From Terebella lapidaria (taxonomy: Eukaryota > Annelida > Polychaeta > Terebellida > Terebellidae): a DNA stretch of 64,000 nt. Location of the stretch: positions 18,618,868 through 18,682,867 of the forward strand of contig OX424555.1 in NCBI GenBank assembly GCA_949152475.1, written 5' to 3'. Positions 13,956 through 52,500 of this stretch are shown here, piece by piece. The notes under the pieces are model-generated. The model saw only the letters and a list, made by a program, of their open reading frames with translations, had not been told where the DNA came from and ran no database searches. Position numbers and translations under genes: made by a program. Positions within the stretch are counted from its first letter, which is position 1. Each line of letters opens with the position of its first letter.

Positions 13956-16900
13956 AGCGGAAGACAGTGTTTCGCCGATGTTCCAACGAAACGTCCAACA
14001 AGAAATAACCTGCCTCTGAAGAATGTACATTCATGCATATTCTGTCAATCAAGAAAGTATGTCACTACTAAAGCAAAAAGTAGAGTTCTGGAGACACACA
14101 CTATTTGTAACTCTGGAGAAGCCGCAAAAACTGTTGAGACAGCAGCTGAAATCAGGCATGATGAATCAATGCTCGCCACGCTACGCTGCATGCAGTTGCA
14201 TTTGGGTGCTGAGTTTTCTTATCACAGAACATGTTATCGCAGGTATACCAGTACCAAGCATATCGGTAATTCAAAAGACGAATCCATCTATGACGCAGCA
14301 TTCAAGTCTGTAGCATCACACGTTGAAAAAAAAGTGATTGAAGATCACCAGACCTTGCAGATGAACGACATCCAGTCTGCTTTCAACAACTTTTTGCAGG
14401 AAAACAGTGAAAACTTAGCAGAATCATGCACTTTTCAGTACAAAAGCGACAGGCTGAAAAAGCGTTTGCTCAACTACTTCGGAGACAGACTTTCATTTTG
14501 GCGACCTGGTCGTATGAATGCACCAGAAATAATTTACAGTGCTAATATACCAACTGGGAAGTTCGTAGAAGCCACAATGCTGTCCTCTAAGGCGAACCTG
14601 GAAATGAAGTCTGATGACGGGGACGAGAACAAAAAGCCTTCCAATATCAACTTGCAGGCAACATTGCATCATGCAGCTCAACATATCCGGGCAGTTCTCT
14701 TAACTGTGAAATCTACGATCTACAATCCCATACAAGCACAAGATTTTCATGAAGACCGTATTCCTGTCCCTGACGTAGTGTACAACTTCTTAGCGTGCAT
14801 CATTCACAGCTGCCTGGATTATGTTGAGACTCCTCGTCTAGATGTACCAACACCATCCCACCGACAAATTTTGTCTATCAGCCAAGACATGATTCATGCT
14901 GTTACTCGTGGTAGAGTTAAAACCCAGAAACACGTGGCACTTCCATTGATGATCAGGAGTACATCCAGCGTAGTGGAGACCATCAATGTTCTGAACAGAA
15001 TGGGCCACAGTCTGTCATACACGCAGTGTGATGAAATCGAGACAACTATGGCAAAAAAATCGTGGCGTCAACAAACTGTGTGCCTGATAGCTGCATCCCA
15101 AATACATTTGCAACTTTCTGCTGGGATAACAACGACTTGAGAGAAGAAACATTGTCCGGCCGGGGAACAACACATTGCACCAATGGAATTGTAGTTCAGG
15201 ATAAACAAGTCCCAATAAAACGAGGTGAAATTGGCCATGTACCGTCTACTAATGATGACCAATCTGAGAGTGAACCTCAAGTAACTTCAAGACATAGACG
15301 GTCACTGCAAGAAACAGGAACAGGAACAGGACTTCTCGCATTCAATCCCCTGCCCAGAAGAGGTCCAGGCACGTTGACCATCAATCCTGAAAACATTGAC
15401 ATGTCTTGTTCTGAGGTATGTGAACGAATTGATCTCGGATGGATAGTAGCAAGATTGGATCTGACTGAAACTCTGTTTGGAAACTCCGTGGATCCGGGTT
15501 CGCAGCAGGTACCAGGGTGGACAGCGTTCAATGCAGTGCTTCAAAGAGGACAGGCACAGAGACAAAGTCAAGTGAGTTACATCAGACCGATTGATGCCAG
15601 TCCAACAGAACTGTCCACTGTGTACACTCTTCTAAAAAGGTCACTGGCGATGGCAGAAGAACTCAATGGCGTCAAACTGAATGCCCAATAGTTTGTGACC
15701 TGGCCATTTACGCTAAGGTAATGCAGATAATATGGCAGAGACCTGACGAATTTTCCAGAGTGGTGCCGAGGTTGGGATGTTTTCATGTGATATGTTGCTA
15801 TCTCTCAATTCTTGGAAAACGATTCGGAGATGCTGGATTAGCAGATGTCCTAACAGAGAGTGGTGTCCTTGCTTCGGGAAGTGTGCCAGGCGTCATTGAA
15901 GGTAGACACTACAACAGATCCACCAGAATGCACAACATGCTTCAATGTCAGGACATAGAAAGGTGCCTTTGTCAACACTATGTGATGTTTGCTGTTTCTT
16001 CTGTTTGTAAGATTTCCTACATTATTTCCTCATGACAACAGTTCATCATTCGCAATGTTACATATTATCTTTGGCTTGCTTTGCAGATCATCGTACGATC
16101 TCCAGATGCTGATGTGCAAGTAATTGCTACCAGTTGTCAATCAGCCATAACTGCATCACTGTTTGTCGAGACAGGTAGTGGTAGAAACAGCAAGTTTGTT
16201 GATATCAAATCGGTCGTCAAAAAATTTGGACCAGCAATATGTGCTGCTTTGCCTGGCTTACATGCTGTAACAGGGTGCGATACTGTCAGTGCATTTGCCT
16301 TCAAAGGCAAGAGGAAAGCTCTCGATATTATTGACAAGAGCACGACACTGAGAGAGACCATGAAAAAGCTGGGGGACACGGTACCACTTCCAGATGATTT
16401 GCTACCTGAGCTGGAGAGCTTTGTCTGTGCACTTTATGGCGCTGATACCACAGAAGTCAACGAGGCACGCTACATCACATTTTGCAAAATGAAAAATGTT
16501 GAGGTATAGTTATTTTGTCTAATTGTGCTTAACAGTCTCAAACACATTTACACATGATAAACATTGTGACGTTTCCTAATACATACCATGCATAAATCCT
16601 CTTCAAACAGTCTCAAAAATTACCCCCAACACGAGCTGCTCTGAAGAAACACATGATGAGGGCAAACTTCCAGTCTGCCATTTGGAAAAATGCACTGAAT
16701 CCGACCCCCAACCTTCCAGATCCATGTGGTAACGGATGGATTGAACTCGGTGGTCAGCTGGTTATTGACTGGACTGACGCAGACCCAGCGCCAGAAGCCG
16801 TGCTTGGGTTGGTGGCATGCAAGTGCCGGACCGGATGTGACACAAGACGATGTAGCTGTCGGACCAACGGACTACAATGCTCTGACGCGTGCAAATGTAC

Positions 16901-16979
16901 ATCATGTGTGAACCAACCGATCATCGAAGACTCTGATAGTGACTCAAACTCTGACACAAACGATGATGACGATGAGTAA
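13956..16979 (+). pseudogene. Decayed transposon protein: Cys/His head, conserved core, XPG/FEN-like nuclease, CXC tail
   Basis: The first segment reads from a CIFCQSRKYV zinc-finger-like head (about 14029) through YHRTCYRRYTS into a long conserved core. The frame then shifts at the A-run 15053-15059, and again near 15675-15682, where it continues as CPIVCDLAIYAKV and RLGCFHVI. Two further exons follow with good splice sites: 16087-16503, with SPDADV and GLHAVTGCDTVSAFAFKGK (an H3TH-like loop as in FEN1/XPG), and 16611-16979, with LPPTRAALKKHMMRANFQ and a cysteine-rich ACKCRTGCDTRRCSCR tail, ending at TAA. This matches a very abundant invertebrate repeat-protein family. Part of the middle expected from that family seems missing between about 15960 and 16086. 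Two frameshifts plus this gap mean the copy cannot make a full protein. Confidence 0.7.
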
Positions 16980-20439: not shown

Positions 20440-22100
20440 GATTCATCGCTTAATCATTTGACATACCTACTGAGAATCTGACCCAGTGGGACACTCATCA
20501 TTTCATCCTTTCAACTGACCCAGTGGGAATCTGACCCAGTCAGACATTCATTGCTTCATCATTTCACTTGACCTAGTGGGACACTGACCTAGTGGGACAC
20601 TCATCATTTCATCTTTTCAACTGACCCAGTGGGAACCTGACCCAATCAGACATTCATCGCTTCATCATTTCACTTGACCAGAAATACATTGGTCTTATGT
20701 ATTTCTGACTTGACCTAGTGGGACACTCATCATTTCACCTTTCAACTGACCCAGTGGAAACCTGACCCAGCCAGACATTCATCGCTTCATCATTTTACAA
20801 GACCCAGTGGGACACTCATCATTTCATCCTTTCAACTGACCCAGTGGGAACCTGACCCAGCCAGACATTCATCGCTTCATCATTTTACATGACCCAGTGG
20901 GACACTCATCATTTCATCCTCTCAACTGACCCAGTGGGAACCTGACCCAGCCAGACATTCATCGCTTCATCATTTTACATGACCCAGTGGGACACTCATC
21001 ATTTCATCCTTTGAACTGAGTGAGTGGGAACCTGACCCAGTCAGACATTCATCATTTCATCATTTTACATGACCCAGTGGGACACTCATCATTTCATCCT
21101 TTCAACTAACCCAGTGGGAACCTCCTCATTTCATCATTCCAACTGACCCAGTGAGAACCTGACCCAGTCAAACATTCATCGCTTCATCATTTTACATGAG
21201 CCAGTCGGACATTCATCATTTCATCCTTTTAACTGACCCAGTGGGAACCTGACCCAGCCAGACATTCATTGCTTCATCATTTTACCTGACCCAGTGGGAC
21301 ACTCATCATTTCATCCTTTCAAATGACTCATATTGGGAACCTGACCCAATCAGAAATTCATCGCTTCATCATTTTACCTGACACAGTGGGACACTCATCA
21401 TTTCATCCTTTCAACTGACCCAGTGGGACACTCATCATTTCATCATTCCAACTGACCCAGTGGGAACCTGACCCAGTCAGACATTCATCGCTTCATCATT
21501 TTACATGACCCAGTGTGACATTTATCATTTCTTCCTTTTAACTGACCCGTGGGAACCTGACCCAGCCAGACATTCATCGCTTCATCATTTTACCTGACCC
21601 AGTGGGACACTCATCATTTCATCCTTTCAACTGACCCAGTGGGAACCTGACCCAGGAAGACATTCATCGCTTCATCATTTAGCATGACCCAGTGGGACAC
21701 TCATCATTTCATCATTTCAACCGACCCAGTGGGAACCTGACCCAGTGAGACATTCATCATTTCATCATTTTACATGGCCAAGTGGGACATTCATCATTTC
21801 ATCATTTTACATAACCCAGTGGGACACTCATCATTTCATCCTTTTAACTGACCCAGTGGGAACCTGACCCAATGAGGCCTTCATTATTTCATCATTTTAC
21901 ATGACCCAGTGGGACATTCATCATTTCATGCTTCAACTGACCCAGTGGAAACCTCATCATTTCATCATTTCATCATTCCAACTGACCCAGCCAGACGTTC
22001 ATTGCTTCATCATTTCACTTGACCTAGTAGGACACTCATCATTTCATCATTTAAACTGACCCAGTGGGAACCTGACGGAGTCAGACATTCATCGCTTCAT
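20440..22100 (+). repeat. 90-bp satellite array, forward arm (~18 units)
   Basis: Unit built of two related halves around GACCCAGTGGGA: one ends CATTCATCGCTTCATCATTT, the other CACTCATCATTTCATCCTTT. The 90-bp period is exact between 20821 and 20911; other units carry deletions or lack a half. Confidence 0.9.
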
Positions 22101-22509
22101 TTTCAAGGCAGACACCAGTAATGCCTTTATGCTTTTGTCAAAAAAAATTCTCTTTTTCTTTCATTTTCTGGTTCCGCACGATAATTTCAGTTTGCCCTGA
22201 TATATCTGCCAAATTCCACAGCTGGTCAGAAATGAGGTGTAGAAAAAGCTTATTGTTTTTGAGCTGGCTTCGGGGTCTGTAAGGTCCGTGAGGATGAAAT
22301 CAATATTTCTGGTTCCACATGATAACTAAAAAAATATTATGGCAATGACTGTGGGACTTTGCATGGAGGTCCATATATCACCAGGGAAGAAGACCGTTAA
22401 TTTTGAGGGTGTCGGGATTTTTCACGAAAAATGCTGTGAAAGAAGAAAAAACGAAAAAAAATTTTTTTTTGACAAAACCGTTAAGGCGTATCTGCTGAAA
22501 TACCTTAAT
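22101..22509 (+). mobile_element. Family A (Helentron-like) segment inside the fold-back element
   Basis: Starts AAGGCAGACACCAGTAATGCC, a decayed version of the family A 5' hairpin at 28027, then TTTATGCTTTTGTC, GGTTCCGCACGATAA and AGGTCCGTGAGGATGAAATC, all shared with 29510-29780 and 35460-35720. It separates the two satellite arms. Confidence 0.65.
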
Positions 22510-23140
22510 GATGAAGCAATCAATGTCTGACTGGCTGAGGTTCCCACTGGGTCAGGTGGAAGGATGAAATGATCAGTGTCCCACTAGGTCAAGGGAAATG
22601 ATGAAGCGATGAATATCTGACTGGTTCAGGTTCCCACTGGGTCATTTGAAAGGATGAAATGATGAATGTCCCAGTGGGCCATGTAAAATCATGAAATGAT
22701 GAATATTTCACTGGCTCAGGTTCCCACTGGGTCAGTTGAAATGATGAAATGATGAGTGTCCCACTGGGTCATGTCAAATGATGAAGGAATGAATGTTTGG
22801 CTGGGTCAGGTTCCCACTGGGTCAGTTGAAATGATGAAATGATGAGTGTCACACTGGGTCATGTCAAATGATGAAGCAATGAATGTCTGGCTGGGTGAGG
22901 TTCCCACTGGGTCAGTTGAAAGGATGAAATGATGAGTGTCCCACTGGGACAGGTAAAATGATGAAGCGATGAATGTCTGGCTGGGTCAGGTTCCCACTGG
23001 GTCAGTTAAAAGGATGAAATGATGAGTGTCCCACTGGGTCAGGTAAAATGATGAAGCGATGAATGTCTGACTGGGTCAGGTTCCCACTGGGTCAGTTGAA
23101 AAGATGAAATGATGAGTGTCCCATTGGGTCACATGAAATG
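22510..23140 (-). repeat. 90-bp satellite array, inverted arm (~7 units)
   Basis: Reads TGGGTCAGGTTCCCACTGGG and GATGAAATGATGAGTGTCCC on the plus strand, the complement of the forward-arm units. Confidence 0.9.
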
Positions 23141-23798: not shown

Positions 23799-26700
23799 AT
23801 GGCATGCGGAGGGGATGTGATGGACATAGATACCAGATGTTCCGCTGAGACTATGACATTAAATGGTCCGGACCAGTATCATCTATATATTGGCTATGAT
23901 CGTGACGACCAAGATGCTCGAGTTCATTTCAAGGATATCAGCGAATCTTTGGAGGACCAAAACTTTCTTGTGTTCCACGATACCAGTACTGATGGGCATG
24001 CAATCAACATAAGTAATGGCACTCGGGTATCTCAAAAGGTAAATACTGATTGTCAGAAATGTTCTGAATCTTATGATTCATATTGAATAATCACTCAATG
24101 TACCAGTATTTGTGATTTGTTTGCTTTCATCTTGTCATAACTCTATTGTGAATACAGATGGTGATTCTGATAACGAAATCATACCTGGCAAAAACAGTGT
24201 GGTTCCCACATGAGAAGAAACATGTCTTGGACAAGGTAAACACCAGATCGATGCCCGAGTCTCTGTGCCTACTACTGTTTGATGTTGAGGCAGAAGAATT
24301 ACCAGATGACCTCCAGGGCTATGCCGCCATCACGCATGGGGAGAACAAACTTCAATATCTGGTGGAATTTCTCAGTAAAGGTGTCATAGCTTTGTACCAT
24401 TGAATAAAATCACCTTCTTTACATATCTATCTAAACATACATTTACATGTGTATTAGTAATACATATTATTCGTTGCAGATATCACACCACACCCATCTG
24501 CTGTTTCCAAGTACAACATGGGTGTTACACTAGCCTGTGGACATTTTTATGGCTACCTGCGGTTTGTTCTGCAGGGTGAGCAAGATTATCATGATTTCTT
24601 CGAGTTTCAAGATACAATGTTAGCACATTCTCGAGTTGTATTTGGCACTATCTTGGCATCATGCATCTTTGCTCTCTTTATGTATTCACCACGTGTATTG
24701 TAGTTAGCCATGTTCACATCATAAACAATTGACCACAGGACCAAGGTCCTCCAAGTGAAAGTAAATAAATGGTTTGTTGTTTTCAGGTTTACGTGACCGA
24801 ATCCAGGAATCTCGTGTTCATGAAATGGCGGGCAGGCGTGTGATGAGTCTCAAAATGTTTGTTGTTCTCCCTGTGTCGTGCCTATGCCCATCTGACATGT
24901 GTGCCATGGACCCAGTAGCCATCTCGCAATGTAGTACCATCCCTTACAACGTCAGCAAGGGCGGGATCAAAGCTCGGGACTACAAGGCTACCGTCTACGA
25001 AATCAAAGGAAAGGAAGAGGTACATGTATCTTAGTCCTTGTAGTGTTGAATATCGATAGAATTGAGAACTGTTGCATGTTTTATAGAGAGCCAAAGTCAT
25101 GACGTAGAGTATTTGAATAGCAAAAGATTTAATTCGCCTACTGGTTCTAAACATCTCAAATTCAATGGTACTGCTAACTTGAAACAAAGGCTGTTTACTT
25201 GTTTAGAACTTGCCACACTTCAGCACTCTATTTTGTTTTGGTGTTTTTGAGAATGAGTTTTTTCTTCTTCAAAAATTTAACTTATTGACAGACGATGTTG
25301 TCTAATTAAGGCATTTCAGCAGAAATGCCTTTATGGTTTTGTCAAAATTTATATTTTTAGGTTACCGGACCTATGGTCCGATAACCTATTGGCATGGCGT
25401 TGCGTCCGTCGTCCGTCGTCGTCCGTCGTCGTCCGTCGTCGTCGTCGTCGTCCACATTTTTATCTTTTTTGTTTACGGGCGAATTTTTCTGAAATTTTGC
25501 AGAAAAATACTTAAAAATAATTCAAGAAGGAAGTATTTTTTAGTTTTTTGATTTTCGCTTTTTCTTCAAAATGGCGGCCGTTTTCGACGAAAAAGGCCTG
25601 ATTTTGGAGTTTGGCGGCCATTTTCTCAAAATCTGTTCAGTAACTTTTTTTCTCTTTGATACATAAGACTCCTCATATGTACTTCTATGATGTCTACAAA
25701 TTTCGTTGCGCTTGAATCGCTCGAAGTGGGCCATTTTGGCCCAAACTCGGCCCAAATGGGACTTTCCCATGTTAAATTCTCCTATGCTTTATAATGGGAC
25801 ACATTAAAGCCTAATATCTCACTTAATATTGAGATTAGAGACTAGGAATCAATTGTGGACATATAGGAAATGATATATGCTGAATATTGTCGTGACCTTG
25901 AATTTGACCTCTGACCTTGGTTTCAAGGTCAGAGCGGCTGTTTTCGTCGAAAAATGGCCAATTTTGGACTTCGACGGTCGTTTTCTCAAAATCTGTTCAG
26001 TAACTTTTTTTCTTATTGATGCATGACACTCCTCCTATGTACCCCTGTGACATGTATAAATTTCGTTGCCCTTGAATCGCTCGAAGTGGGCCATTTTGGG
26101 CCCAAACTCGGCCCAAATGGGACTTTCCCATGTTAAATTCTCCTATGCTTTATAATGGGACACATTAAGCCTAATATCTCACTTAATATTGAAATTAGAG
26201 ATTAGGAATGAATTGTGGACATATAGGAAATGATATATGCTGAATATTCTAGTGACCTTGAATTTGACTTTTGACCTCATTTTCAAGGTCACAGGACAAA
26301 ATGGCTAATATCTCGCTTATTATCGACTTTACAGCTTAGGAATCAGTTGTGAACATATAGGAAATGATATATGCTGAATATTCTTGTGACCTTGAATTTG
26401 ACCTTTGACCTCATTTTCAAGGTCACATGACAAAATGGCTAATATCTCGCTTATTATCGACTTTACAGTTTAGGAATCAATTGTGAACATATAGGAAATG
26501 ATATATGCTGAATATTTTCGTGACCTTGAATTTGACCTTTGACCTCATTTCCAAGGTCGCAGGACAAAATTGCTAATATCTCGCTTATTATCGACTTTAC
26601 AGCTTAGGAATCAATTGTGAACATATAGAAAATGATATATGCTGAATATTCTCATGACCTTGAATTTGAGCTTTGACCTCATTTTCAAGGTCACAGGACA

Positions 26701-29700
26701 AATTGGCCAATATCTTGCTTATTAGCGACTTTACAGCTTAGGAATCAATTGTGAACATATAGGAAATGATATATGCTGAAAATGCTCGTGACCTTGAATT
26801 TGACCTTTGACCTCATTTTCAAGGTCACAGGACAAAATGGCTAAGATCTCGCTTATTATCGACTTTACAGCTTAGGAATCAATTGTGAACATATAGGAAA
26901 TGATATACGCAGAATATTCTCATGACCTTGAATTTGACCTTTGACCTCATTTCCAAGGTCACAGGACAAAATTGCTGATATCTCGCTTATTATCGACTTT
27001 ACAGCTTAGGAATCAATTGTGAACATATGGGAAATGATATATGCTGAATATTCTCGTGACCTTGAATTTGACCTTTGACCTCATTTTCAAGGTCACAGGA
27101 CAAAATGGCCAATATCTTGCTTATTAGCGACTTTACAGCTTAGGAATCAATTGTGAACATATAGGAAATGATATATGCTGAAAATGCTCGTGACCTTGAA
27201 TTTGACCTTTGACCTCATTTTCAAGGTCACAGGACAAAACGGCCAATATCTTGCTTATTAGCGACTTTACACCTTAGGAATCAATTGTGAACATATAGGA
27301 AATGATATATGCAGAAAATGCTCGTGACCTTGAATTTGACCTTTGACCTATTTTCAAGGTCACAGGACAAAATGGCCAATATCTTGCTTATTAGCGACTT
27401 TACAGCTTAGGAATCAATTGTGAACATATAGGAAATGATATATGCTGAAAATGCTCGTGATCTTGAATTTGACCTTTGACCTATTTTCAGGGTCACAGGA
27501 CAAAATGGCCAATATCTTCCTTATTAGCGACTTTACAGCTTAGGAATTAATTGTGAACATATAGGAAATGATATATGCTGAAAATTCTCATGACCTTGAA
27601 TTTGACCTTTGACCTCATTTTCAAGGTCAACAGGACAAAGTGGCTAATATCTTGCTTATTATCGACTTTACAGCTTAGGAATCAATTGTGAACATATAGG
27701 AAATGATATATTCTGAATATTTTAATGATATTGAATTTGACCTTTGACCTAAATTTCAAGGTCAGTCATTTTATTTTCAAAGTCAGATTACAAAATGGCT
27801 TATATCTCGGTTATTATCAAATTTACAGCTTAGTAGTCCATAGTGAACATATAGGAAATGATGTATGCTGAATAGTTTGGTGATCTAGAATTTAACCTTT
27901 GATCCCATTTTCACGGTTAGAGATATGGCGATTTCAGTGGTCACCTTGAATTTGACTTTCAACTTTCTCGGCTTAACTCTGTATATTTCTCCGGTAACCT
28001 TACTAGCCCATTGGGCTAATTTTTATTAAGGCATTTCGGCAGAAATGCCTTTATGGTTTTAGCAGAATTTTTTTTTTTTTTTTTCTTTTTTCTTTTTTAG
28101 GTTACCGGACCTATGGTCCGATAACCTATTGGCATGGCGTTGCGTCCGTCGTCCGTCGTCGTCGTCATCGTCGTCGTCGTCGTCGTCGTCCACATTTTTA
28201 TCTTTTTTGTTTACGGGCGAATTTTTCTGAAATTTTGCAGAAAAATACTTAAAAATAATTCAAGAAGGAGGTATTTTTTAGTTTTTTGATTTTCGCTTTT
28301 TCTTCGAAAAAGAAAAAGGCCTGATTTTGGACTTTGGTGGCCATTTTCTCAAAATCTGTTCAGTAACTTTTTTTCTTTTTGATACATAAGACTCCTCATA
28401 TGTATTTCTATGATGTCTATAAATTTGGTTGTGCTTGAATCGCTCGAAGTGGGCCAATTTGGCCCAAACTCGGCCCAAATGGGACTTTCCCATGTTAAAT
28501 TCTCCTATGCTTTATAATGGGACACATTATGCCTATTATCTCACTTGATATTGAGATTAGAGACTAGGAATCAATTGTGGACATATAGGAAATGATATAT
28601 GCTGAATATTCTCGTGACCTTGAATTTGACCTCTGACCTCAGTTTCAAGGTCAGAGCACAAAATGGCTTATATCTCGCTTATTATCGACTCTACAGCTTA
28701 GGAATCAATTGTGGACATATAGGAAATAATATATGCTGAATATTCTCGTGACCTTGAATTTGACCTCTGACCTCGGTTTCAAGGTCAGAGCACAAAATGG
28801 CTTATATCTCGCTTATTATCGACTCTACAGCTTGGAAATCAATTGTGGACATTTAGGAAATGATATATGCTGAATATTCTGATGACCTTGAATTTGACCT
28901 TCGAACTCATTTTCAAGGTCACAGGACAAAATGGCTAATATCTCGCTTGTTATCGACTTTACAGCTTAGCAATCAATTATGAACATATAGGAAATGATAT
29001 ATGCAGATTATTGTCATGACCTTGAATTTGACCTTTGACCTCATTTTCAAGGTCACAGGACAAAATGGCTAATATCTCACTTATTATCGATTTTACAGCT
29101 TAGGAATCAATTGTGGACATATAGGAAATGATATATGCTGAATATTCTCGTGACCTTGAATTTGACCTCTGACCTCATTTTCAAGGTCCAAGGACAAACT
29201 GGCTCATATCTAGCTCCTCTATTGACTGTATAGCTTGGGAATCAATTGTGGACATATATACAAAATGATATACATTGAATATTTTGATGATCTTGAATTT
29301 GACCTTTACCCCTTCATTTTCAAGGCCACAGCACAAAATTGCTAATATCTCTCTGATTATTGAATTTACAGCTTAGCAATCAACTGTGGACATGATATAT
29401 GCTTAATGTTATATATGCTGAATATTCTCTTGACCTTGAATTCAACCAGTGACCTGGCTAACATCTAAAATATTAAACATTGTCCGGTAACCTATCTTCG
29501 GCCCTTGTTTTCTTCTTCCGCCGTTTTGGTTTCCGGACGATAACTTTAGATTGCCTTGACGGATTCTTGTCAAATTTTCACCACAAGTCAGAAATGATAT
29601 GTGGAAGAACCCTATTCTTTTTGAGCCGGATCCGAGGTCCGTGAGGTCCGTGAGGTCCGTGAGGATGAAATCAAGGCTAATTTTGAAACTTGGTTTCCGG

Positions 29701-30034
29701 ACGATAACTGGAAAAATATTCACGCAATAGTTGCAGAACTCTGCATGGAGGTTCATATGCCACCAGGGAAGAACCCTATTGATTTTGGGATCGATCGGTC
29801 AAATGACCTTTGACCTAGAGGTCAAAATAACTTTTTGCTGATTCATCCTTGAGGCTTTCTGCATATCTCGGAAACGGTGCATCGTAGAGCGAAACGGACG
29901 TTATTTTCGGACTCGTCGCCCTAGACAAACATGTCTAATGGGTATTATGGATGAACTTTGACCCGAAATTTTTAGGTTACCGGACCTATGGTCCGATAAC
30001 CTATTGGCGTGGCGTTGCGTCCGTCGTCCGTCGT

Positions 30035-30066
<32 letters not shown>

Positions 30067-33000
30067 CACATTTTTATCTTTTTTGTTTACGGGCGAATTT
30101 TTCTGAAATTTTGCACAAAAATACTTAAAAATAATTCAAGAAGGAGGTATTTTTTAGTTTTTTGATTTTCGCATTTTTTTCAAAATGGCGGCCGTTTTCG
30201 ACGAAAAATGCCTGATTTTGGACTTTGACGGCCATTTTCTCAAAATCTGTTCAGTAACTTTTTTTCTGTTTGATGCATAAGACTCCTCATATGTACTCCT
30301 ATGATGTCTATAAATTTCGTCGCGCTTGAATCGCTCGAAGTGGGCCATTTTGGCCTAAACTCGGCCCAAATGGGACTTTCCCATGTTAAATTCTCCTATG
30401 CTTTATAATGGGACACATTATGCCTAATATCTCACTTGATATTGAGATTAGAGACTAGGAATCAATTGTGGACATATAGGAAATGATATATGCTGAATAT
30501 TCTCGTGACCTTGAATTTGACCTCTGACCTCAGTTTCAAGGTCAGAGCACAAAATGGCTTATATCTCGCTTATTATCGACTCTACAGCTTAGGAATCAAT
30601 TGTGGACATATAGGAAATAATATATGCTGAATATTCTCGTGACCTTGAATTTGACCTCTGACCTCAGTTTCAAGGTCAGAGCACAAAATGGCTTATATCT
30701 CGCTTATTAACGACTCTACAGCTTAGGAATCAATTGTGGACATATAGGAAATGATATATGCTGAATATTCTGATGACCTTGAATTTGACTTTCAACCTCA
30801 TTTTCAAGGTCACAGGACAAAATGGCTAATATCTCGCTTGTTATCGACTTAACAGCTTAGCAATCAATTATTAACATATAGGAAATGATATATGCAGATT
30901 ATTGTCATGACCTTGAATTTGACTTTTGACCTGATTTTCGAGGTCACAGGACAAACAGGCTAATATCTCACTTATTATCGATTTTACAGCTTAGGAATCA
31001 ATTGTGGACATATAGGAAATGATATATGCTGAATATTCTCGTGACCTTGAATTTGACCTCTGACCTCATTTTCAAGGTCCAAGGACAAACTGACTCATAT
31101 CTTGCTCCTCTATTGACTGTATGGCTTGGGAATCAATTGTGGACATGATATAGAAAATGATATACATTGAATATTTTGATGACCTTGAATTTGACCTTTG
31201 CCCCTTCATTTTCAAGGCCACAGCACAAAATTGCTAATATCTCTCTGATTATTGAATTTACAGCTTAGCAATCAACTGTGGACATGATATATGCTTAATG
31301 TTATATATGCTGAATATTCTCTTGACCCTGAATTCAACCAGTGACCTGGCTAACATCTAAAATATTAAACATTGTCCGGTAACCTATCTTCGGCCCTTGG
31401 CCTAATTTTTTTGCCGAGTCGGCATTTTTCGTTTTCGTCGATATCTCGGAAACTGTGCGTCGTAGAGCGAAACGGACGTTATTTTCGGACTCGTCGCCGT
31501 AGACAAATATGTCTAAAGGGTATTATGGACGAACTTTGACCTTGACCCGAAATTTTTTTGCCGAGTCGGCATTTTTCGTTTTCGTCGATATCTCGGAAAC
31601 GGTGCGTCGTAGAGCGAAACGGACGTTATTTTCGGACTCGTCGCCTAGACAAACATGTCTAAAGGGTATTATGGACGAACTTTGACCTTGACCCGAATTT
31701 TTTTTGCAGAGTCGGCATTTTAGGTTACCGGACCTATGGTCCGTAACCTATTGGCATGGCGATGCGTCCGGCGTCGGCGTCGTCGTCCGTCGTCCGTCGT
31801 CGTCGTCGTCGTCCGTCAACAATTTTATCTTTAAAGTTTACAATCGAATTTTTCTGAAATTTTGCACAAAAATGCCTAAAAATATTTCGAGAGGGAGGTA
31901 TTTTTTAGTTTTTTGATTTTCGCATTTTTTTCAAAATGGCGGCCGTTTTCGACGAAAAATGCCTGATTTTGGACTTTGGCGGCCATTTTCTCAAAATCTG
32001 TTCAGTAACTTTTTTTTTTATTGATGCATAACACTCCTCATACATGTATGTACCCCTGTGACATGTATAAATTTCGTTGCGCTTGAATCGCTCGAAGTGG
32101 GCCATTTTGGGCCCAAACTCGGCCCAAATGGGACTTTCCCATGTTAAATTCTCCTATGCTTTATAATGGGACACATTAAAGCCTAATATCTCACTTAATA
32201 TTGAGATTAGAGACTAGGAATCAATTGTGGACATATAGGAAATGATATATGCTGAATATTGTCGTGACCTTGAATTTGACCTCTGACCTTGGTTTCAAGG
32301 TCAGAGCGGCCGTTTTCGTCGAAAAATGGCCAATTTTGGACTTCGACGGTCGTTTTCTCAAAATCTGTTCAGTAACTTTTTTTTCTTATTGATGAAAAAC
32401 ACTCCTCATATGTACCCCTGTGACATGTATAAATTTCGTTGCGCTTGAATCGCTTGAAGTGGGCCATTTTGGGCCCAAACTCGGCCCAAATGTGACTTTC
32501 CCATGTTAAATTTTCCTATGCTTTATAATGGCACACATTAAGCCTAATATCTCACTTAATATTGAAATTAGAGACTAGGAATGAATTGTGGACATATAGG
32601 AAATGATATATGCTGAATATTCTCGTGACCTTGAATTTGACTTTTGACCTCATTTTCAAGGTCACAGGACAAAATGGCTAATATCTCGCTTATTATCGAC
32701 TTTACAGCTTAGGAATCAGTTGTGAACATATAGGAAATGATATACAGTGGTCCCCCTCAGATAAGACCCCCCTCAAGAAAGACTTCCCCCTTTGTAAAGA
32801 CTTTTTCTTGTGGCGCTAGAATGACTTTAACATGTAAATGAACCCCTCTAATAAGACATCCCCTTAGATAGGACCTTGATTTTGTGGCAGACGGGTAGGT
32901 CTTATCTGAGGGGGACCACTGTATGCTGAATATTCTTGTGACCTTGAATTTGACCTTTGACCTCATTTTCAAGGTCACATGACAAAATGGCTAATATCTC

Positions 33001-36000
33001 GCTTATTATCGACTTTACAATTTAGGAATCAATTGTGAACATATAGGAAATGATATATGCTGAATATTTTCGTGACCTTGAATTTGACTTTTGACCTCAT
33101 TTCCAAGGTCGCAGGACAAAATTGCTAATATCTAGCTCATTATCGACTTTACAGCTTAGGAATCAATTGTGAACATATAGGAAATGATATATGCTGAATA
33201 TTCTCGTGGCCTTGAATTTGAGCTTTGACCTCATTTTCAAGGTCACAGGACAAAATGGCCAATATCTTGCTTATTAGCGACTTTACAGCTTAGGAATCGA
33301 TTGTGAACATATAGGAAATGATATATGCTGAAAATTCTCGTGACCTTGAATTTGACCTTTGACCTCATTTTCAAGGTCACAGGACAAAACGGCCAATATC
33401 TTGCTTATTAGCGACTTTACAGCTTAGGAATCAATTGTGAACATACAGGAAATGATATATGCTGAAAATTCTCATGACCTTGAATTTGACCATTGACCTC
33501 ATTTTCAAGGTCACATGACAAAATGGCTAATATCTCGCTTATTATCGACTTTACAGCTTAGGAATCAATTGTGAACATATAGGAAATGATATATGATGAA
33601 TATTCTCATGACCTTGAATTTGACCTTTGACCTCATTTCCAAGGTCACAGGACAAAATTGCTAATATCTCGCTTATTATCGACTTTACAGCTTAGGAATC
33701 AATTGTGAACACATAGGAAATGATATATATATGCTGAATATTCTCATGACCTTGAATTTGACCTTTGACCTCATTTTCAAGGTCACATGACAAATGACTA
33801 ATATCTCGCTTATTATCGACTTTACAGGTTAGGAATCAATTGTGAACATATAGGAAATGATATATGCTGAATATTCTCATGACCTTGAATTTGACCTTTG
33901 ACCTCATTTCCAAGGTCACAGGACAAAATTGCTAATATCTCGCTTATTATCGACTTTACAGCTTAGGAATCAATTGTGAACATATAGGAAATGATATATA
34001 TATGCTGAATATTCTCATGACCTTGAATTTGACCTTTGACCTCATTTTCAAGGTCCCAGGACAAAATGGCCAATATCTTGCTTATTAGCGCCTTTACAGC
34101 TTAGAAATCAATTGTGAACATATAGGAAATGATATATGCTGAATATTCTAGTGACCTTGAATTTGACTTTTGACCTCATTTTCAAGGTCAACAGGACAAA
34201 ATGGCTAATATCTCGCTTATTATCGACTTTACAGCTTAGGAATCAATTGTGAACATATAGGAAATGATATATTCTGAATATTTTAATGATATTGAATTTG
34301 ACCTTTGACCTAAATTTCAAGGTCAGTCATTTTATTTTCAAAGTCAGATTACAAAATGGCTTATATCTCGCTTATTATCAAATTTACAGCTTAGGGGTCC
34401 ATAGTGAACATATACATGATATAGGGAATGATGTATGCTGAATAGTTTGGTGATCTAGAATTTAACCTTTGATCCCATTTTCAAGGTTAGAGATATGGCG
34501 ATTTCAGTGGGCACCTTGAATTTGACCTTCAACTTTCTCGGCTTAACTGTATATTTCTCCGGTAACCTTTCTAGCCCATTGGGCTAATTTTTTCGTTTTC
34601 GTTGATATCTCATCGCCCTAGACAAATAGTCTAGAGGGTATTATGGATGAACTTTGACCTTGACCCGAAATTTTTTTGCCGAGTCGGCATTTTTCGTTTT
34701 TGTCGATATCTCGGAAACGGTGCGTCGTAGAGCAAAACGGACGTTATTTTCGGACTCTTCGTCCTAGACAAACATGTCTAGAGGGTATTATGGATGAACT
34801 TTGACCTTGACCCAAAACTTTTTTGCCGAGTCGGCATTTTTCGTTTTCGTCGATATCTCGGAAACGGTGCGTCGTAGAGCGACCCGAAATTTTTTTGCCG
34901 AATCGGCATTTTTCGTTTTCGTCGATATCTCGGAAACTGTGCGTCGTAGAGCGAAACGGACGTTATTTTCGGACTCGTCGTCCTAGACAAACATGTCTAG
35001 AGGGTATTATGGATGAACTTTGACCTTGACCCGGAACTTTTTGCCGAGTCGGCATTTTTTGTTTTCGTCGATATCTCGGAAACGGTGCGTCGTAGAGCGA
35101 AACGGACGTTATTTTCGGACTCGTCGCCCTGTACAAACATGTCTAATGGGTATTATGTATGAACTTTGACCTTGACCCGAAATTTTTTTGCCGAGTCGGC
35201 ATTTTCGTTTTCGTCGATATCTCGGAAACGGTGCGTCGTAGAGCGAAACGGATGTTATTTTCGGACTAGTCGCCCTAGACAAACATGTCTAAGGGGTATT
35301 ACGGATGAACTTTGAACTTGACCTGAAATTTTTTTTCATTTTCGTCGATATCTAGTAGATATTATAAATTAATCATCACACCGAAATGCCTCCAAGGCAT
35401 CTTTAGGCCTTGACGTCTAGTTTTATTTTATTTTATTTTTTATTTTTTTTTTTTTTCACTTTTTGGTTTCCGCACGATAACTTCAGTTTGCCTCGATGTA
35501 TCTTTGCCTTATCTTTCACCACTGGTCAGAAATGTTTTGTAGAAGAAGCCTATTGTTTTTGAGCCATCTCTGGGGTCCGTGAGGTCCGTGGAGATGAAAT
35601 CAATGTTTTTGGTTTCTGCGCGATAACTCAAAAAGTATTTTGGCAATGAATGTGAAGCTTCGCATGGAGGTTCATATATCAGCAGGGAAGAAGCCTATTG
35701 ATTTTGAGGTCGAGCCGTCAAACGACCTTTGACCTAGGGCTCGAAGTAATTTTTGCCGACTCATCCTTGAGGCTCTCATGCATATCTCGGAAACGATGCG
35801 TCGTAGTGCGAAACGGACATTATTTTCGAACTCGTGGCCCTAGACAAACATGTCTTAAGGGTATTAGGGATGACCTTTGACCTCGACCTTAAATTTTTTC
35901 GCTGAGTCGGCATTTTTTCGTTTTCGTCGATATCACGGAAACGGTGCGTCGTAGAGCAAAATGGACATTATTTTTGGACTAGTGGCCCTAGATAGACATG

Positions 36001-39000
36001 TCTTAAAGATATTAGGGATGACCTTTGACCTCGACCTTAAATTTTTTCGCTAAGTCGGCATTTTTCGTTTTCGTTGATATCTCGGAAGTGGTATGTCATA
36101 GAACAAAACAGACGCAAAACGTTTCGGACTTGTGGCTCTAGACAGACATGTCTTAAGGGTATTAGGGATGACCTTGACCTTACATTTTTTCGCTGAGTCG
36201 GCATTTTTCGTTTTCGTCGATATCTCGGAAACGGTGTGTCGTAGAGCGAAACGGACGTTATTTTCGGACTTGTGGCCCTTGACAGACATGTCTTAAGGGT
36301 ATTAGGGATGACCTTTGACCTTGACCTTACACTTTTTCGCTGAGTCGGCATTTTTCTTTTTCGTCAATATCTCGGAAACGGTGCGTAGAAGAGCGAAACG
36401 GACGTTATTTTTGGACTCGTGGCCCTAGACAGACATTTCTTAAGGGTATTAGGGATGACCTTTGACCTTGACCTTACATTTTTACGCCGAGTCGGCATTT
36501 TTCGTTTTCGTAGATATCTCGGAAACGGTGTGTCGTAGAGCGAAACGGACATTATTTTCGGGCTCGTGGCCCTAGACAAACATGTCTTAAGGGTATTAGG
36601 GATGACCTTCGACCTTGACCTTAAATTTTTTCGCCGAGTCGGCATTTTTCGTTTTCGGCGATATCTCGGAAACGGTGCGTCGTAGAGCGAAACGGACGTT
36701 ATTTACCTTAAGGGTAAGGGTATTAGGGATGACCTTTGACCTTGACCTTAATTTTTTTTGCCGAGTCGGCATTTCTCTCGGAAACGGTGCATCGTAGAGC
36801 GAAACGGACGTTATTTACCTTAAGGGTAAGGGTATTAGGGATGACCTTTGACCTTAATTTTTTTTGCCGAGTCGGCATTTCTCGCTTTTGTTGATATCTC
36901 GGACACGGTGCGTCGTAGAGCGAAAGGGACGTTGTTTTCGGACTCATGGCCTTAGACAAACATGTCTGAGGGGTATTAGGGAGGAACTTTGACCTTGCCC
37001 TGAAATTTTTTCGCCGAGTCAGCATTTTTCATTTTCATCGATACCTCGGAAACAGTGCGACCTAGAGCAAAACAGACATTAGACAGATAGTCTTAGGGGT
37101 ATCAAGTTTGTCCTTCACATACATGTAGTTGCACAAATGTCTTATAGGTCTCATTGGGAGCTTGACTGCTTCATCATGTTTTTGCTGAGTAAGCATTTTG
37201 TTTTTTTCATGCTTCACCCTGAAATGCCTCCAAGGCCTTTAGGCCTTGACGTCTAGTTTTGTCACAGATATTATCAAAAACACACAGAAATAAACCTTTA
37301 CTGAGTACGTGAAGTGAATGTGAATGTACTGGTACTAAATATTATCATCAGCCTATGAAATTCATTAGGTAATTTCGGAAAACCTCTTACACAGCTGTAC
37401 CGAGTGGTGATGGAGTTTCCAGGCACGCTAACAACTTTGTACGACATGGTCAATGACAAAACATCTGGGATGAGTCGAGATGAGTGTAGACGTGAGGTGG
37501 ACCTGTTCTACTTCCACCTGAGGGCGCTGCTCACCAGTCATGGACTGCAGGATGCAATCCACATCATCTACCTCAATGGTCAGTCAGTGGTTACATACTC
37601 GCAGGGACTTTGAAACCTCCATTCATCTTGGTATTTTTTGTAAAACAGTGTCATACATGTACCAACCATCACAGATTTCCTTCCGTAGATCATCAACAGG
37701 CTTTCGTGGATTGTATTGTGCACCATATTAAAGAACAGATCAAGAGAGAGCAATTGCATCCAGTTTGCTCAGAACCTAAAATAGGTTAGTCTTCTAGATT
37801 CATTTTATCCTCAGAAATATCATCTCTGTGACAATATTATGGTAGATGCATTGGCAGATATTCTGGATTTGACTGTGGACTAATCCATTGAAATGAGATT
37901 TACTCAAGTATTCTGACTTGAATATATTTATATATACATACAATTTCATACAAAATAATAGAATTGATGTTCAAAATTTTCAGCGGGAACATTCCTCTCT
38001 CCAATGAAACCAGTGGATTCTAAGCAGAAAAGTATAATTGCTATCATCTCATTCCCATTCAATTGTTAGAATGCTTTAAATCATTTAAGTTGAAGTAAAG
38101 TGCATCTATGGAAATAAAATCACTGAGACTATTTGTTCTGTAGTCACATGGGAGAAAAATCGGATGGCGCACTACATGCTGGATGTACCTGAGGGGCAGA
38201 AACGAGGCAAGGCGTTCATTTTCAATAATGAAAAGTTTCAACGAATCTCCGGACTGGACAACAGACGTGGCACAGAAAATGACATAAGTTGGTAAACTTT
38301 TAGATATTTATTACTCTTTATATTTGATTTATCTAGATGATGTGTATGGTTTCGTTTTTCACATAGGTTTTTTTGTGAATCATTTGTTTCATAAATGATT
38401 AGACATAATTATTATGATGGATATAGAGTCTACATATATTTATATCCATTCATACTATCCTCTGTATTCATACTACATTGATAGAATTCACATTCATATG
38501 GAGTTGTTTCTATTTACCACTGCAGAGAAGATGCACGAGTTGTTCAAGCTCCTGCAGTTTGAAGTGCATGTTTTCCGAGACTTGACTGCTGCCGAAATGA
38601 ACAACAAAGTCGCAGAGCTATGTGAGAGTACAAACTTCCAGACCGACCGGGCCGTTGCCTTCTGTATCATGTCCCATGCCAAGCTAGGCCAGTTGTATGG
38701 GACAGACGGAGGGCTGGTCAAAATCACGCACCTCACCAGGGAGCTAGCTCAGGTTCAGACTCTCCACAGGAAACCCAAAATGTTCTTCATCCAGGCCTGC
38801 CAGAGAGGCAGAGGTACTGAGCATTCAAACAAACTAAATCTCCGAAGTTGACCTCCTATTCCATTGCAATTATCCACAGATGTTGATTTACGGGTAAACA
38901 TGTGCATGTTTGCTTGTTCACTGTTATGAAATGAACTTTGAGTTTGGGGTTACTAAAATGGTGTACATTTTCTCATGCAGGGACTAGTTCACAGTCCTCC

Positions 39001-39600
39001 ACAGAACCCACTACCCCAGTCAGTCCAAGTCCAGCAGAGGATATGGAGACCGAGATCGAGACTTCAGTCAGCTCCAATGGAGACGATGCAAGTCAGTCGA
39101 CCGAGCAGACAGCGAGACAGGACTCTGGATACTCCTCAGACATGAGCCACACAGGAATCTCAGGACCCCTGCAGAAACTGACAGAGCAGGAAATGACACA
39201 GCCCAATTCACCAATCCAGGCAATATACTCCATCAACTTCCACCCGTCTAATGACATTAGCGTAGGCACACAGGTCGCTGACTCCGACAGCTCTGAAGGC
39301 GACTTGGCCACAGCTGATCTTGTCCCGGGGGCACCTGACTTTGTTATGAGTTATGCCACCCTGCCGGGCTGTCTCGCCTGGCGATATTCAGGTGAACAAT
39401 TCCACAAAACATTCTACCTGGATGCATTGTATGAAAAAATCCATGAACTCAGATCTGTAGAACCATTAGATCGTATTCTCATGAAGGTATCAGAATTTGT
39501 CAAGGATGAAATGGAACAAGTTTTCCCACATGAGCGTTTCTACAAGAGACAATTTCCGTTTTATCTTCAAACCACTGACAAATTGATCTATTTAGATTAG
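23799..39600 (+). CDS. TIR-STING-caspase fusion protein, 723 residues, apparently complete
   Basis: Exons 23799-24038, 24158-24380, 24480-24575, 24787-25019, 37395-37578, 37689-37784, 37984-38031, 38144-38287, 38526-38813 and 38981-39600 join in phase to one frame ending in TAG. The start ATG sits in CCACCATGG, an ideal Kozak context. TIR (about 27-150) has YHLYIGYDRDD, VILITKSYL and W95-xxx-E99. STING (155-357), with no membrane helices, has ACGHFYGYLRF (Y180, human Y167), GIKARDY (R250 and Y252, human R238 and Y240) and VVMEFPG (E271, human E260). The caspase (374-723) has R414-R-G-T, H472, the catalytic C513 in QACQRG, then a 115-residue Ser/Thr/Asp-rich linker and a p10 with SYATLPGCLAWR. 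There is no CARD, DED or STING C-terminal tail. Expected role: cyclic-dinucleotide sensing coupled directly to proteolysis, and perhaps NAD+ cleavage. Two neighbouring genes is the alternative; unbroken phase and the missing prodomain argue for one. Confidence 0.88.
25313..25358 (+). mobile_element. Family A 5' tip (Helentron-like)
   Basis: AAGGCATTTCAGCAGAAATG followed by CCTTTATGGTTTTGTC: a hairpin-forming 5' terminus like that at 28027. Family B element B1 starts immediately after it. Confidence 0.7.
25359..28020 (+). mobile_element. Family B element B1 (long type, ~14 tandem units)
   Basis: Begins AGGTTACCGGACC TAT GGTCCGATAACC, a hairpin, then a GTC-type microsatellite (25408-25450), a unique block with GGCGGCC and TCTGTTCAGTAAC, and about 14 tandem units of roughly 133 bp. 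It ends TCCGGTAACC, then the stem AGCCC ATT GGGCT and AAT. Inverted sub-terminal GGTTACCGGA/TCCGGTAACC, an internal microsatellite and a 3' stem-loop are the layout of Helentron-associated (HINE, DINE-1/pearl-like) elements. Non-coding. Confidence 0.75.
28027..28098 (+). mobile_element. Family A 5' tip of the second, larger element (A2)
   Basis: AAGGCATTTCGGCAGAAATG then CCTTTATGG and a T-rich tract. It is interrupted by B2; A2 sequence resumes at 29508. Confidence 0.7.
28099..29507 (+). mobile_element. Family B element B2 (short type, ~7 units)
   Basis: Same head as B1 with its own GTC microsatellite, then about seven ~133-bp units. It ends GTCCGGTAACCTATCTTCGG plus CCCTTG. Compared with B1 it lacks the second GGCGG block and has a different end type, shared with B3. 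Confidence 0.75.
29508..29973 (+). mobile_element. Family A core (A2) between B2 and B3
   Basis: Contains GGTTTCCGGACGATAAC, AGGTCCGTGAGGATGAAATC and CACCAGGGAAGAA, shared with 22170-22430 and 35460-35720, and one copy of the ~146-bp family A unit. Confidence 0.7.
29974..31406 (+). mobile_element. Family B element B3 (short type, ~7 units)
   Basis: Nearly the twin of B2 in unit order and private changes. It ends CGGCCCTTGGCCTAAT, where GGCC CTT GGCC is the 3' stem-loop. Confidence 0.75.
31407..31721 (+). repeat. Family A tandem units (2 copies)
   Basis: About 146-bp units with TTGCCGAGTCGGCATTTTTC, CGATATCTCGGAAACGGTGC and AGACAAACATGTCTAAAGGG. Confidence 0.8.
31722..34588 (+). mobile_element. 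Family B element B4 (long type, ~14 units)
   Basis: Matches B1 in unit order, second GGCGG block and 3' end (AGCCC ATT GGGCTAAT). About 180 bp longer because a Tc1/mariner-type MITE sits in it. Confidence 0.75.
32745..32921. mobile_element. Tc1/mariner-type MITE, 177 bp, TA target duplication
   Basis: CAGTGGTCCCCCTCAGATAA at one end and its exact complement TTATCTGAGGGGGACCACTG at the other, flanked by TA on both sides. It interrupts the GATATATGCTG word of a family B unit, so the target is known precisely. The near-perfect ends suggest a young insertion. Confidence 0.9.
34589..35421 (+). mobile_element. Family A tandem units and 3' terminus (A2 end)
   Basis: About five 146-bp units, then CCGAAATGCCTCCAAGGC, the stem around TTTAGGCCTTG and a terminal GTCTAGT followed by TTT. 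CTAGT fits the CTRRT rule of Helitron 3' ends. GAAATGCC is the inverted partner of GGCATTTC at the 5' tip. Confidence 0.75.
35422..37257 (+). mobile_element. Second family A element (A3), ~9-10 units
   Basis: T-rich start, then GGTTTCCGCACGATAAC, GGGGTCCGTGAGGTCCGTGG and TATCAGCAGGGAAGAAGCC, then decaying 146-bp units to about 37100. The 3' terminus CAAGGCC TTTA GGCCTTG plus ACGTCTAGT has a perfect 7-bp stem. Confidence 0.75.
37258..37394 (+). other. Right edge of intron 4 of the TIR-STING-caspase gene
   Basis: Short unique sequence ending in the acceptor TTACACAG before exon 5. Confidence 0.6.
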
Positions 39601-49586: not shown

Positions 49587-52500
49587 ATGGATTGCTGTGT
49601 GTCAATGTGTGTGGCCCGGGAGAAGTATTATCCGCTGGTGTACGTTCCGGTCCGGGACCTGGAGCTGCCCGCCCCAAGGCTACCGTCTTGCCGCCGCTCA
49701 CAGGTCTTCCGACCAGAACAGTACACCGCCGTACAGCGCCACGCCACCAAGGTAGAGTCGTGTAAAACCAGCTCATATGATGTTATTTACGATGGTGTGT
49801 AAAGGGTATTGTTCATTTATTGAGAAAGGGTATTGTATTTTGCATTATGTTTCCAAGTTCGCTCTAACTTATGTTTTCAAGTTCGCTCAAACTGTCACCA
49901 CTTGCAGCCTCTGCCGACACTGACGCTCTACGGAAGTTTTCAGACATTGGCCAGGCATCTGTGCCGACTGGCTAGGGACGACCTGGGCCGTCTTTGGGCC
50001 ATCTATTGCTGGATAACATCCATGTCTCTGGATCAGACCCAGACCAGCGACAAACACCCGCCCGCAGAAAACTCGCCCCTCGAGTACCTTATTCGGATGA
50101 AGAACAGGGAAAATGTCCACTCGCATCTGTTCGCAGCCTTGTCCCAGTAAGTGCTGATTTGATCTTGTAGGGAACGGACTGGCATTGTCATTAGAATTTT
50201 TCAGATTTATCTCATTATTATTATAATTTTCTAGGGCAGCAGGTATACCTTGTGTTGTGATCAAAGGTGTGAGCAAGAACGCAGGCTACCAACTTGGTGC
50301 CAAAGTGGACCATTCTAAGATGGCCTCACAGTGGAATGCTGTCTTTGTGTACAACGAGTGGCGCTTGGTTGACACGCTCTGGGGCTCCACGTGTATCACC
50401 GGCAAACGCTCGACCGAGTGGGCCATCGTGGACGCGGACGGGGATATAATGACGGCAGAGGAGAAGTTGTCAGACGGCAAGAGCCGCAGTGACTTCAATG
50501 ACTTCTATTTCCTGACCGATCCAGACATGCTGGTCTGTACACACCTACCAGACGACTCAGCCTGGCAGCTCCTGCCCACTCCAGTGACCGAGGAGGACTT
50601 CACAACTCGGGTGTATGTTCGTGAACAGTTCTTCCATCTCAATTGCTCCTTGAGATTCAGCGAAGCAGCAGACTTATTATTGAAATCTAAGAACGGGAAA
50701 GTGGTGATTGAGTTCGGGTTGCCAGAGAAAAAATCACTTGCTTACGATTTCAAGTACCTCTTGTTCAAGGACCCCTCTTCCTGCCCAGTCAAAAACAACT
50801 CGCAATTGCAAGGGACGGTCTACAGTGAAATCAATCCCGACGTGGTCTCATATAACATCCAGTTCCCTGCCAAAGGCAGATTCCGTTTCGACATTTTCGG
50901 TGTTGATTCCAGGAGGCAGAAGAGGTTCGATCTCGTTGCTTCTTACCTGATATTCTGTGACAGTCCATCGCCTGACTTCCAGATGCTGCCGGACTCGCCC
51001 GAGATTGGCTGGGGTCCGGGGTTGGAATGTCGTAGGATGGGTCTGCTACCGCTCACGCACCAGTCTGGGGTAATCGACGTCAATGATGGACGGTGTCAGA
51101 TCAGATTCCAATTGAAGGAGCAACTCACCTTCGGCATCGAAATGAAGCACAACGATATTCCATCGTGGGAGCTGGAAAACAATGCTATACTCCGAGCAGA
51201 AAACGGTGAGTTGCAAGTGGACGTTAGGCTGCCCAAAACAGGACAGTACGCCGTCAAGTTATACGCCAAACAAGGAGACACGCCGGGGATACTCAACAAT
51301 GTCTGCAACTATTTGGTCAGAAACAAGGCCGTGACATCTGGACCATCATCATTTCCGTACGTCCACAATGGCATTATTGGGAGAAATGCTCATGTTTGTG
51401 AACAGTTCGGTATTCAGTCCACTTCTCATTCACAGAATCTGATTGTCACCGATACAAACGATGTACCTTTTGGCTTTGAACTGAAGAAGGATGGGGTTGA
51501 TTTGTTGGCGATGCTTTCTGGGCCAAAACTGGCTACCAGCAAACTCTCAGAAATGCTATCCAAGGAAAGGAATAAGCAGCAGATAATCTTCCACTTGAAG
51601 ATGGTGGAGTACGGGGAATACTCACTGAACGTGTACGCCCGGGAGACGGACAGCAGGCTGGTGTACCCGGCTCATAGCTACACGGTCGTCTACGACCCCG
51701 ACAACAACGCTACAACTAAACCCGTCACTTTCGGGCCACTCTCCACAACGGAACCTCTCTACATTAACGGCAGTCAGATGAGCACCAGCCACTCGACCCA
51801 TCACAAAGACTTGGTCCATGCCTGTGTGGAGAAGAGATTCCATTCATTCCCACCGGGTGGATCTCTCGACTCGTCTATCAGCATCACGGAGACGGGGATC
51901 GGGATGAACTTGACGATGGACTCGCTGGATTCGGACAGCTCGTACCGAGTGGACATGTATGAGGAGCTGTCTCACGACTCGGGTATCCTTGTACCCAAGA
52001 AGTGCAGTCGTCTGATGACCACTACAGATGACGAGCTCTTGGGCAAACAGCAGTCCGTCGACCACGCACCTCAACCCGACAGACGTGTGTACTCCTTGCT
52101 AATTCCAATAAATCTACAGCTTCAAATTTCTAGAGTGTAATAGTTAGCGGTAGTATGCCTTCTTCTCCTTTGCAGCTTTCAGTCCTGTGGCAATGAGAGC
52201 TCGGCTCAAGATGGTGCTTGCGTGTCCCACGCTCGAGTTTGCTGACACAGCTCTGAAGAAATGTCGTAACCATGACTACCATGACAAGGACCTCGTTCCC
52301 CGGGTGGAGGAGCTGTTTGGAAAATTGCATGTTCAGAAAAGTAAACATCATGTTCTGGTTTCTCCATTTTGGTTACAAACATTTGCATTTCCCAGAGGTT
52401 GCAAGACGTATATGTATATCTGGAGTATGTACTAAGATACTTGGTCGTGTTAGCTGTTTCTGACAATTTGAATATGTTTACAGACTTCAGTAAGGCGCTT

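Follow-up and report, generated by a model that had tools for sequence, protein, structure and literature searches.

The genome of the polychaete Terebella lapidaria probably contains one gene that encodes a soluble TIR-STING-caspase protein, i.e., a caspase gated by cyclic dinucleotides on a single chain. This reading, made from sequence, concerns positions 23799-39600 of a stretch of 64,000 nucleotides (nt) (assembly GCA_949152475.1, contig OX424555.1, positions 18,618,868 to 18,682,867 of the forward strand), which is referred to here as the window and supplies all coordinates below. Ten plus-strand exons, all with AG/GT borders at the predicted coordinates, join into a coding sequence of 2172 nt for 723 residues, with phase kept throughout and a single terminal stop. 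The joined sequence bears out the original prediction that ten exons run on without a stop or a phase break into 723 residues. The further claim that they form a single chain agrees with the spacing, the phase, and the splice signals, and falls short of proof.

Domains of the predicted protein

Scanned as a whole chain against Pfam at E-values up to 10, the protein matched three families, Peptidase_C14, STING_LBD, and prok_STING, the last of them below its cut-off. STING_LBD (PF15009) covers residues 167-341 (E=1.8e-28; profile positions 1-180 of 182) and Peptidase_C14 (PF00656) covers residues 394-714 (E=2e-35; profile positions 1-225 of 233). Both lie far above the curated cut-offs, and the STING and caspase domains originally predicted therefore stand. 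When residues 1-357 were compared with solved structures (E up to 1; best 60 of 76 sequences), the top match was the TIR-STING of the oyster Crassostrea gigas (6wt6, 7.8e-21), in an alignment over residues 18-348 that takes in both the TIR and the STING parts. Exons 1-6 thus belong together because of their homology to oyster TIR-STING, in which an N-terminal TIR is likewise followed by a STING ligand-binding domain (PDB 6WT6/6WT7). The STING domain is present complete and once across intron 4, with no gap or overlap and with exons 4 and 5 in phase. In its pocket Tyr180, Arg250, Tyr252, and Glu271 are kept, which we take to fall on Tyr167, Arg238, Tyr240, and Glu260 of human STING. A simple hydropathy test found no membrane helix anywhere in the chain (0 of 705 Kyte-Doolittle windows of 19 residues at 1.6 or above, best 1.46), so the protein is probably soluble; the four N-terminal transmembrane helices of canonical animal STING do not appear in these windows.

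The N-terminal domain seems to be a divergent TIR and is the weakest of the domain calls. No TIR family was found in the whole-chain Pfam scan, and the region scanned alone gave TIR_2 with 17.1 bits, where the cut-off is 28 (E=0.0078), whereas the oyster TIR is a clear TIR_2 (1.8e-17). Compared alone with solved structures, the region gave 13 matches, none of which is a TIR. The same region had one irrelevant match in NCBIfam (E 0.02), and residues 1-357 matched no family of PADLOC. The alignment to the oyster TIR nevertheless scored 65 against a best of 51 in 2000 shuffles, none of which reached the score, and 91 against a shuffle best of 66 with BLOSUM45. The TIR of the original prediction is therefore retained as a divergent one on this alignment, and as a family match it was not recovered. 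In the local alignment Glu99, within WFPHE, pairs with an oyster TIR Glu that presumably marks the NADase position; a MAFFT pair alignment of both TIRs placed the gaps differently, and no residue claims are based on it.

The caspase part (residues 358-723) matched caspase-7 best among solved structures (5.1e-24; E up to 0.001; best 60 of 170 sequences), with a strong large-subunit stretch of 69.5 bits, and exons 8-10 belong together because of this caspase homology. The frame of exon 10 stayed open in none of 5000 base shuffles. The catalytic His472 and Cys513 are kept, as are Arg414, Gln511, and Arg652, which we take to line the Asp pocket. No CARD or DED prodomain, by which an initiator caspase would be recognised, was found in the chain (Pfam, E up to 10), as had been predicted. 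The Ser/Thr-rich linker of about 116 residues between the caspase subunits holds several aspartates, including Asp618 in VAD-S. The same linker carries DSGYSS at residues 565-570, in exon 10, which fits the DSGxxS phosphodegron pattern and might place the caspase under turnover driven by ubiquitin.

The junction of STING and caspase

The passage from STING to caspase is the sole junction of the chain without homology support. The STING and caspase halves share a strand, are separated by 359 nt, and match in phase. Ranked among the plus-strand GT or AG dinucleotides of the window under a general consensus matrix, the donor of exon 6 stands at the 95.9 percentile and the acceptor of exon 8 at 95.8; the other percentiles given are on the same scale. 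Among 44,801 positions taken outside the gene as controls, 1.05% have a donor and an acceptor equally good at 359-nt spacing, or about 0.35% once a phase factor of 1/3 is applied; these positions are neighbouring and so not independent, and the thresholds were fixed afterwards to the observed scores. With exon 7 the gap resolves into introns of 199 and 112 nt, and the six other small introns measure 99-238 nt. When exon 6 is joined straight to exon 8 the frame is kept and a protein of 707 residues results, so the STING-caspase fusion is independent of exon 7, which may not be real. Codon choice is alike in both halves, weakly so (r=0.67). Exon 7 (37984-38031), if used, would also contribute PVD-S, where a caspase might cut the chain between its STING and caspase parts.

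A number of observations weigh against the fused chain. The splice sites of exon 7 are poor (acceptor 77.9, donor 56.9 percentile), and without this exon the 359-nt intron exceeds the range of the other small introns. Exon 8 ends in a weak donor (38287, 61.7 percentile), and inside the gap lies an unused acceptor (37815) with a score of 4.5, higher than the 2.5 of the acceptor of exon 8. If intron 6 is retained, a stop follows right after exon 6 (the open frame ends at 37789); AATAAA occurs inside the gap at 38113, and ATTAAA at 37727 within exon 6. Taken alone, the small-subunit stretch of the caspase-7 match is weak (18.7 bits, i-Evalue 0.0098), and two active-site glycines are changed, SHG to SHA and QACXG to QACQR. 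The STING pocket carries Gly175, His176, Lys244, and Gly274, which we take to replace Ser162, Tyr163, Arg232, and Thr263 of human STING; the oyster TIR-STING sequence also has Gly at the positions of Gly175 and Gly274. As to relatives, no orthologue was found: the TIR-STING part gave 2 and 10 pattern matches (viral_contigs and genome_contigs) and the caspase part 4 (viral_contigs), none of which was confirmed by tblastn, in collections that are viral and prokaryotic, so that this negative says little. No paralogue was found in the window either, where tblastn of the chain returned its own exons and three weak matches (E 3.2-8.4).

Among the other explanations, the one that survives best is compatible with the fusion and supposes one gene with two products, the full chain and a short TIR-STING that arises when the intron is retained and the transcript polyadenylated at 38113, with the caspase as an optional effector. 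The stop directly after exon 6, together with the AATAAA, makes a TIR-STING-only product possible, and the weak splice sites of exon 7 suggest alternative use. AATAAA is, however, common in AT-rich introns, and a second product is regarded as a tentative possibility. It is rather unlikely, though conceivable, that the fusion is real and that its caspase serves chiefly as a scaffold or has a very narrow cutting specificity. The pentapeptide of caspases has been given as QACXG, with X being R, G or Q (PMC10967218), a pattern that QACQR does not fit, and this change together with SHA may alter protease activity. On the other side, the catalytic pair and all three pocket residues are kept, and the Peptidase_C14 profile match covers the whole domain.

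A pair of neighbouring genes, of which the first encodes a TIR-STING and stops just past exon 6 while the second encodes a caspase and begins within exon 8 or shortly before it, would explain the same stop, the same AATAAA, and the Met at 38164 just 5' of the caspase core. The exon 8 acceptor could equally follow a non-coding first exon, and the oyster PDB chain 6wt6 (415 residues) aligns to the TIR and STING parts only. A 3' untranslated region, a poly(A) site, and a promoter would, however, have to share 359 nt of 31% guanine plus cytosine with an observed/expected CpG ratio of 0.12. There is no in-frame ATG from the stop at 38086 to the Met at 38164, which is preceded by out-of-frame ATGs at 38108 and 38148. 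The good donor of exon 6, the good acceptor of exon 8, and their matching phase also speak for splicing across the gap, and two genes are considered improbable. Trans-splicing within an operon, with AATAAA at 38113 followed by the acceptor at 38144, is unlikely because the exon 6 donor is good. An assembly error that joined parts of two STING genes over the 12-kilobase repeat intron, whose long tandem arrays are of the kind where assemblies can fail, is very unlikely, given that the phase is kept from exon 4 to exon 5 and a single, complete STING domain results with no gap or overlap, and it would leave the link from STING exons 5-6 to the caspase standing regardless.

Known systems and a possible mechanism

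Fusions of sensors with caspases have been reported from several invertebrates. Amphioxus has TNFR-caspase and LRR-caspase proteins (PMC2575513), and bivalves have caspases with double-stranded-RNA-binding prodomains (PMC7836458) or with FN3 or PB1 (PMC10967218). As in the predicted Terebella chain, an unusual domain sits where CARD or DED would sit; unlike it, these fusions are without STING in the passages covered. A survey of 46 bivalve caspases described CARD, DED, DD, and double-stranded-RNA-binding prodomains, with 24 caspases without a known prodomain (PMC7836458), and neither STING nor TIR occurs in that survey or in two further bivalve caspase papers, PMC10967218 among them. Fusions of STING have also been described. 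STING joined to TRADD-N domains in metazoa (PMC8195603) resembles the present case in linking STING to an apoptosis and immunity signalling domain and differs in that this domain is an adaptor and not a protease. The word caspase is absent from the main text of a survey that covers 146 STING sequences from eukaryotes, and metazoan TIR-STING is thought there to be convergent with bacterial TIR-STING (PMC10732462). The PDB chain of oyster TIR-STING has 415 residues and aligned to the first 348 of the 723 residues only, and the predicted chain runs on past STING into Peptidase_C14, where that of a metazoan TIR-STING would be expected to end. A STING-caspase chain was not found among the papers listed from the open-licence full-text literature (judged by titles, abstract starts, and passages), a scope that leaves most subscription papers and the animal protein databases outside. 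Sensor-caspase and STING fusions are thus known as kinds, and the STING-caspase combination appears to be new, its absence from print being partly tested.

The closest functional precedent comes from Drosophila, where oligomerised STING brings in FADD and, by way of it, DREDD, a homologue of caspase-8; DREDD in turn cleaves Relish (PMC13144350). A caspase is switched on by a STING oligomer in that case also, but through three proteins with death-fold and non-canonical contacts, whereas one chain without a DED or CARD match is predicted here. The single chain would hard-wire the route that flies build from STING, FADD, and DREDD. Bacterial TIR-STING from Sphingobacterium faecium, in which ligand drives STING filaments and the filaments drive the effector (PMC9402430), shares the TIR, the STING, and an effector driven by STING oligomers, and differs in having no caspase. 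SARM1, a TIR NADase, can be activated through cleavage by caspase-3 (PMC12846840); a TIR NADase is linked with a caspase there too, but as two separate proteins and without STING. According to the authors of PMC13144350, further studies must test if other invertebrates use the recruitment of FADD by oligomeric STING as an ancestral mechanism.

The fusion, if real, would be natural evidence of a functional STING-caspase link, bearing on whether invertebrate STING generally signals through caspases, and would offer a compact protein for direct tests of nucleotide-triggered caspase activation. It would also place an enzyme at the position of the STING tail, which recruits a kinase in vertebrates. 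In the proposed mechanism, a cGAS-like receptor would make a cyclic dinucleotide that the STING dimer binds, and ligand-bound STING would then stack into oligomers. The C-terminal caspase domains, placed where vertebrate STING has its signalling tail, would crowd together, pair, and become active, and would cut themselves at aspartates of the long linker, e.g., at Asp618. The output would be caspase cleavage of targets, leading either to cell death or, in the manner of DREDD in Drosophila, to NF-kB-like signalling, and the TIR may serve as a packing partner or as a second effector. STING is regarded as a constitutive dimer that forms without ligand, so the on-switch could not be simple pairing, and higher-order oligomerisation or linker geometry would be needed. 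By analogy, the fly precedent favours NF-kB-like signalling more than was allowed in the original prediction, which had proposed a death pathway. A more far-reaching version, in which one STING oligomer gated by cyclic dinucleotide turns on both the TIR NADase and the caspase of the same chain, with autocleavage freeing or locking the TIR-STING filament, is doubtful; if true, it would set a full immune pathway from sensor to execution inside one animal protein.

Gene structure and neighbouring features

The exons and the intervening features are listed in Table 1. Several splice sites are middling, namely the acceptor (80.6 percentile) and donor (87.3) of exon 2, the acceptor of exon 5 (82.9), and the donor of exon 9 (88.7). 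An end of exon 8 at 38291 was tried and rejected, where the donor scores better but the frame to exon 9 is broken; the end at 38287 was preferred, since with it the alignment to caspase-7 crosses the junction of exons 8 and 9 without a gap. At the 5' end, an acceptor at 23766 (98.4 percentile), 33 nt 5' of the start ATG, seems to point to an upstream first exon. This exon is taken as non-coding because the ATG stands in ACCACCATGG context; the reading frame is open 5' of the ATG up to 23622, and there may be an additional coding exon upstream.

Table 1. Predicted exons and intervening features of the TIR-STING-caspase gene (window coordinates)
Feature	Position	Strand	Description
Exon 1	23799..24038	+	Start codon in ACCACCATGG context; first part of the TIR-like domain
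Exon 2	24158..24380	+	Remainder of the TIR-like domain; Glu99 aligned with oyster TIR Glu
Exon 3	24480..24575	+	Start of the STING ligand-binding domain; Tyr180
Exon 4	24787..25019	+	STING ligand-binding domain; Arg250, Tyr252
Intron 4	25020..37394	+	12375 nt; long tandem arrays; STING homology uninterrupted across it
Exon 5	37395..37578	+	STING ligand-binding domain; Glu271
Exon 6	37689..37784	+	End of the STING domain; donor 95.9 percentile
Gap between STING and caspase exons	37785..38143	+	359 nt; AATAAA at 38113
Exon 7 (doubtful, optional)	37984..38031	+	16-residue linker; frame holds with or without it
Exon 8	38144..38287	+	Start of the caspase large subunit; Arg414 of the putative Asp pocket
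Exon 9	38526..38813	+	Caspase large subunit; His472, Gln511, Cys513
Exon 10	38981..39600	+	Ser/Thr-rich intersubunit linker of about 116 residues, small subunit (Arg652), stop codon

Repeats occur both within the gene and just 5' of it. In intron 4 an element start, GGTTACCGGACCTATGGTCCG, is present in four copies on the same strand at 25360, 28100, 29975, and 31723, and tandem arrays of 134-base-pair (bp) and 147-bp units lie between and after these copies, which look like mobile elements with internal tandem repeats. Just upstream of the gene, at 20441-23131, lies a tandem array of units of about 90 bp that has one orientation to about 22070 and the opposite one from about 22507, and is a large inverted arrangement. 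No tRNA was found in the window. At 16596-16976 there is a Cys-rich Tesmin/TSO1-like CXC match just under its cut-off (20.8 against 23.5 bits), preceded by open frames from 13956 that have no Pfam match at E up to 0.01. Downstream, a long open frame at 50227-52137 with three Pfam Ig-like_KY stretches (6.2e-48) marks a gene for a KY-like protein.

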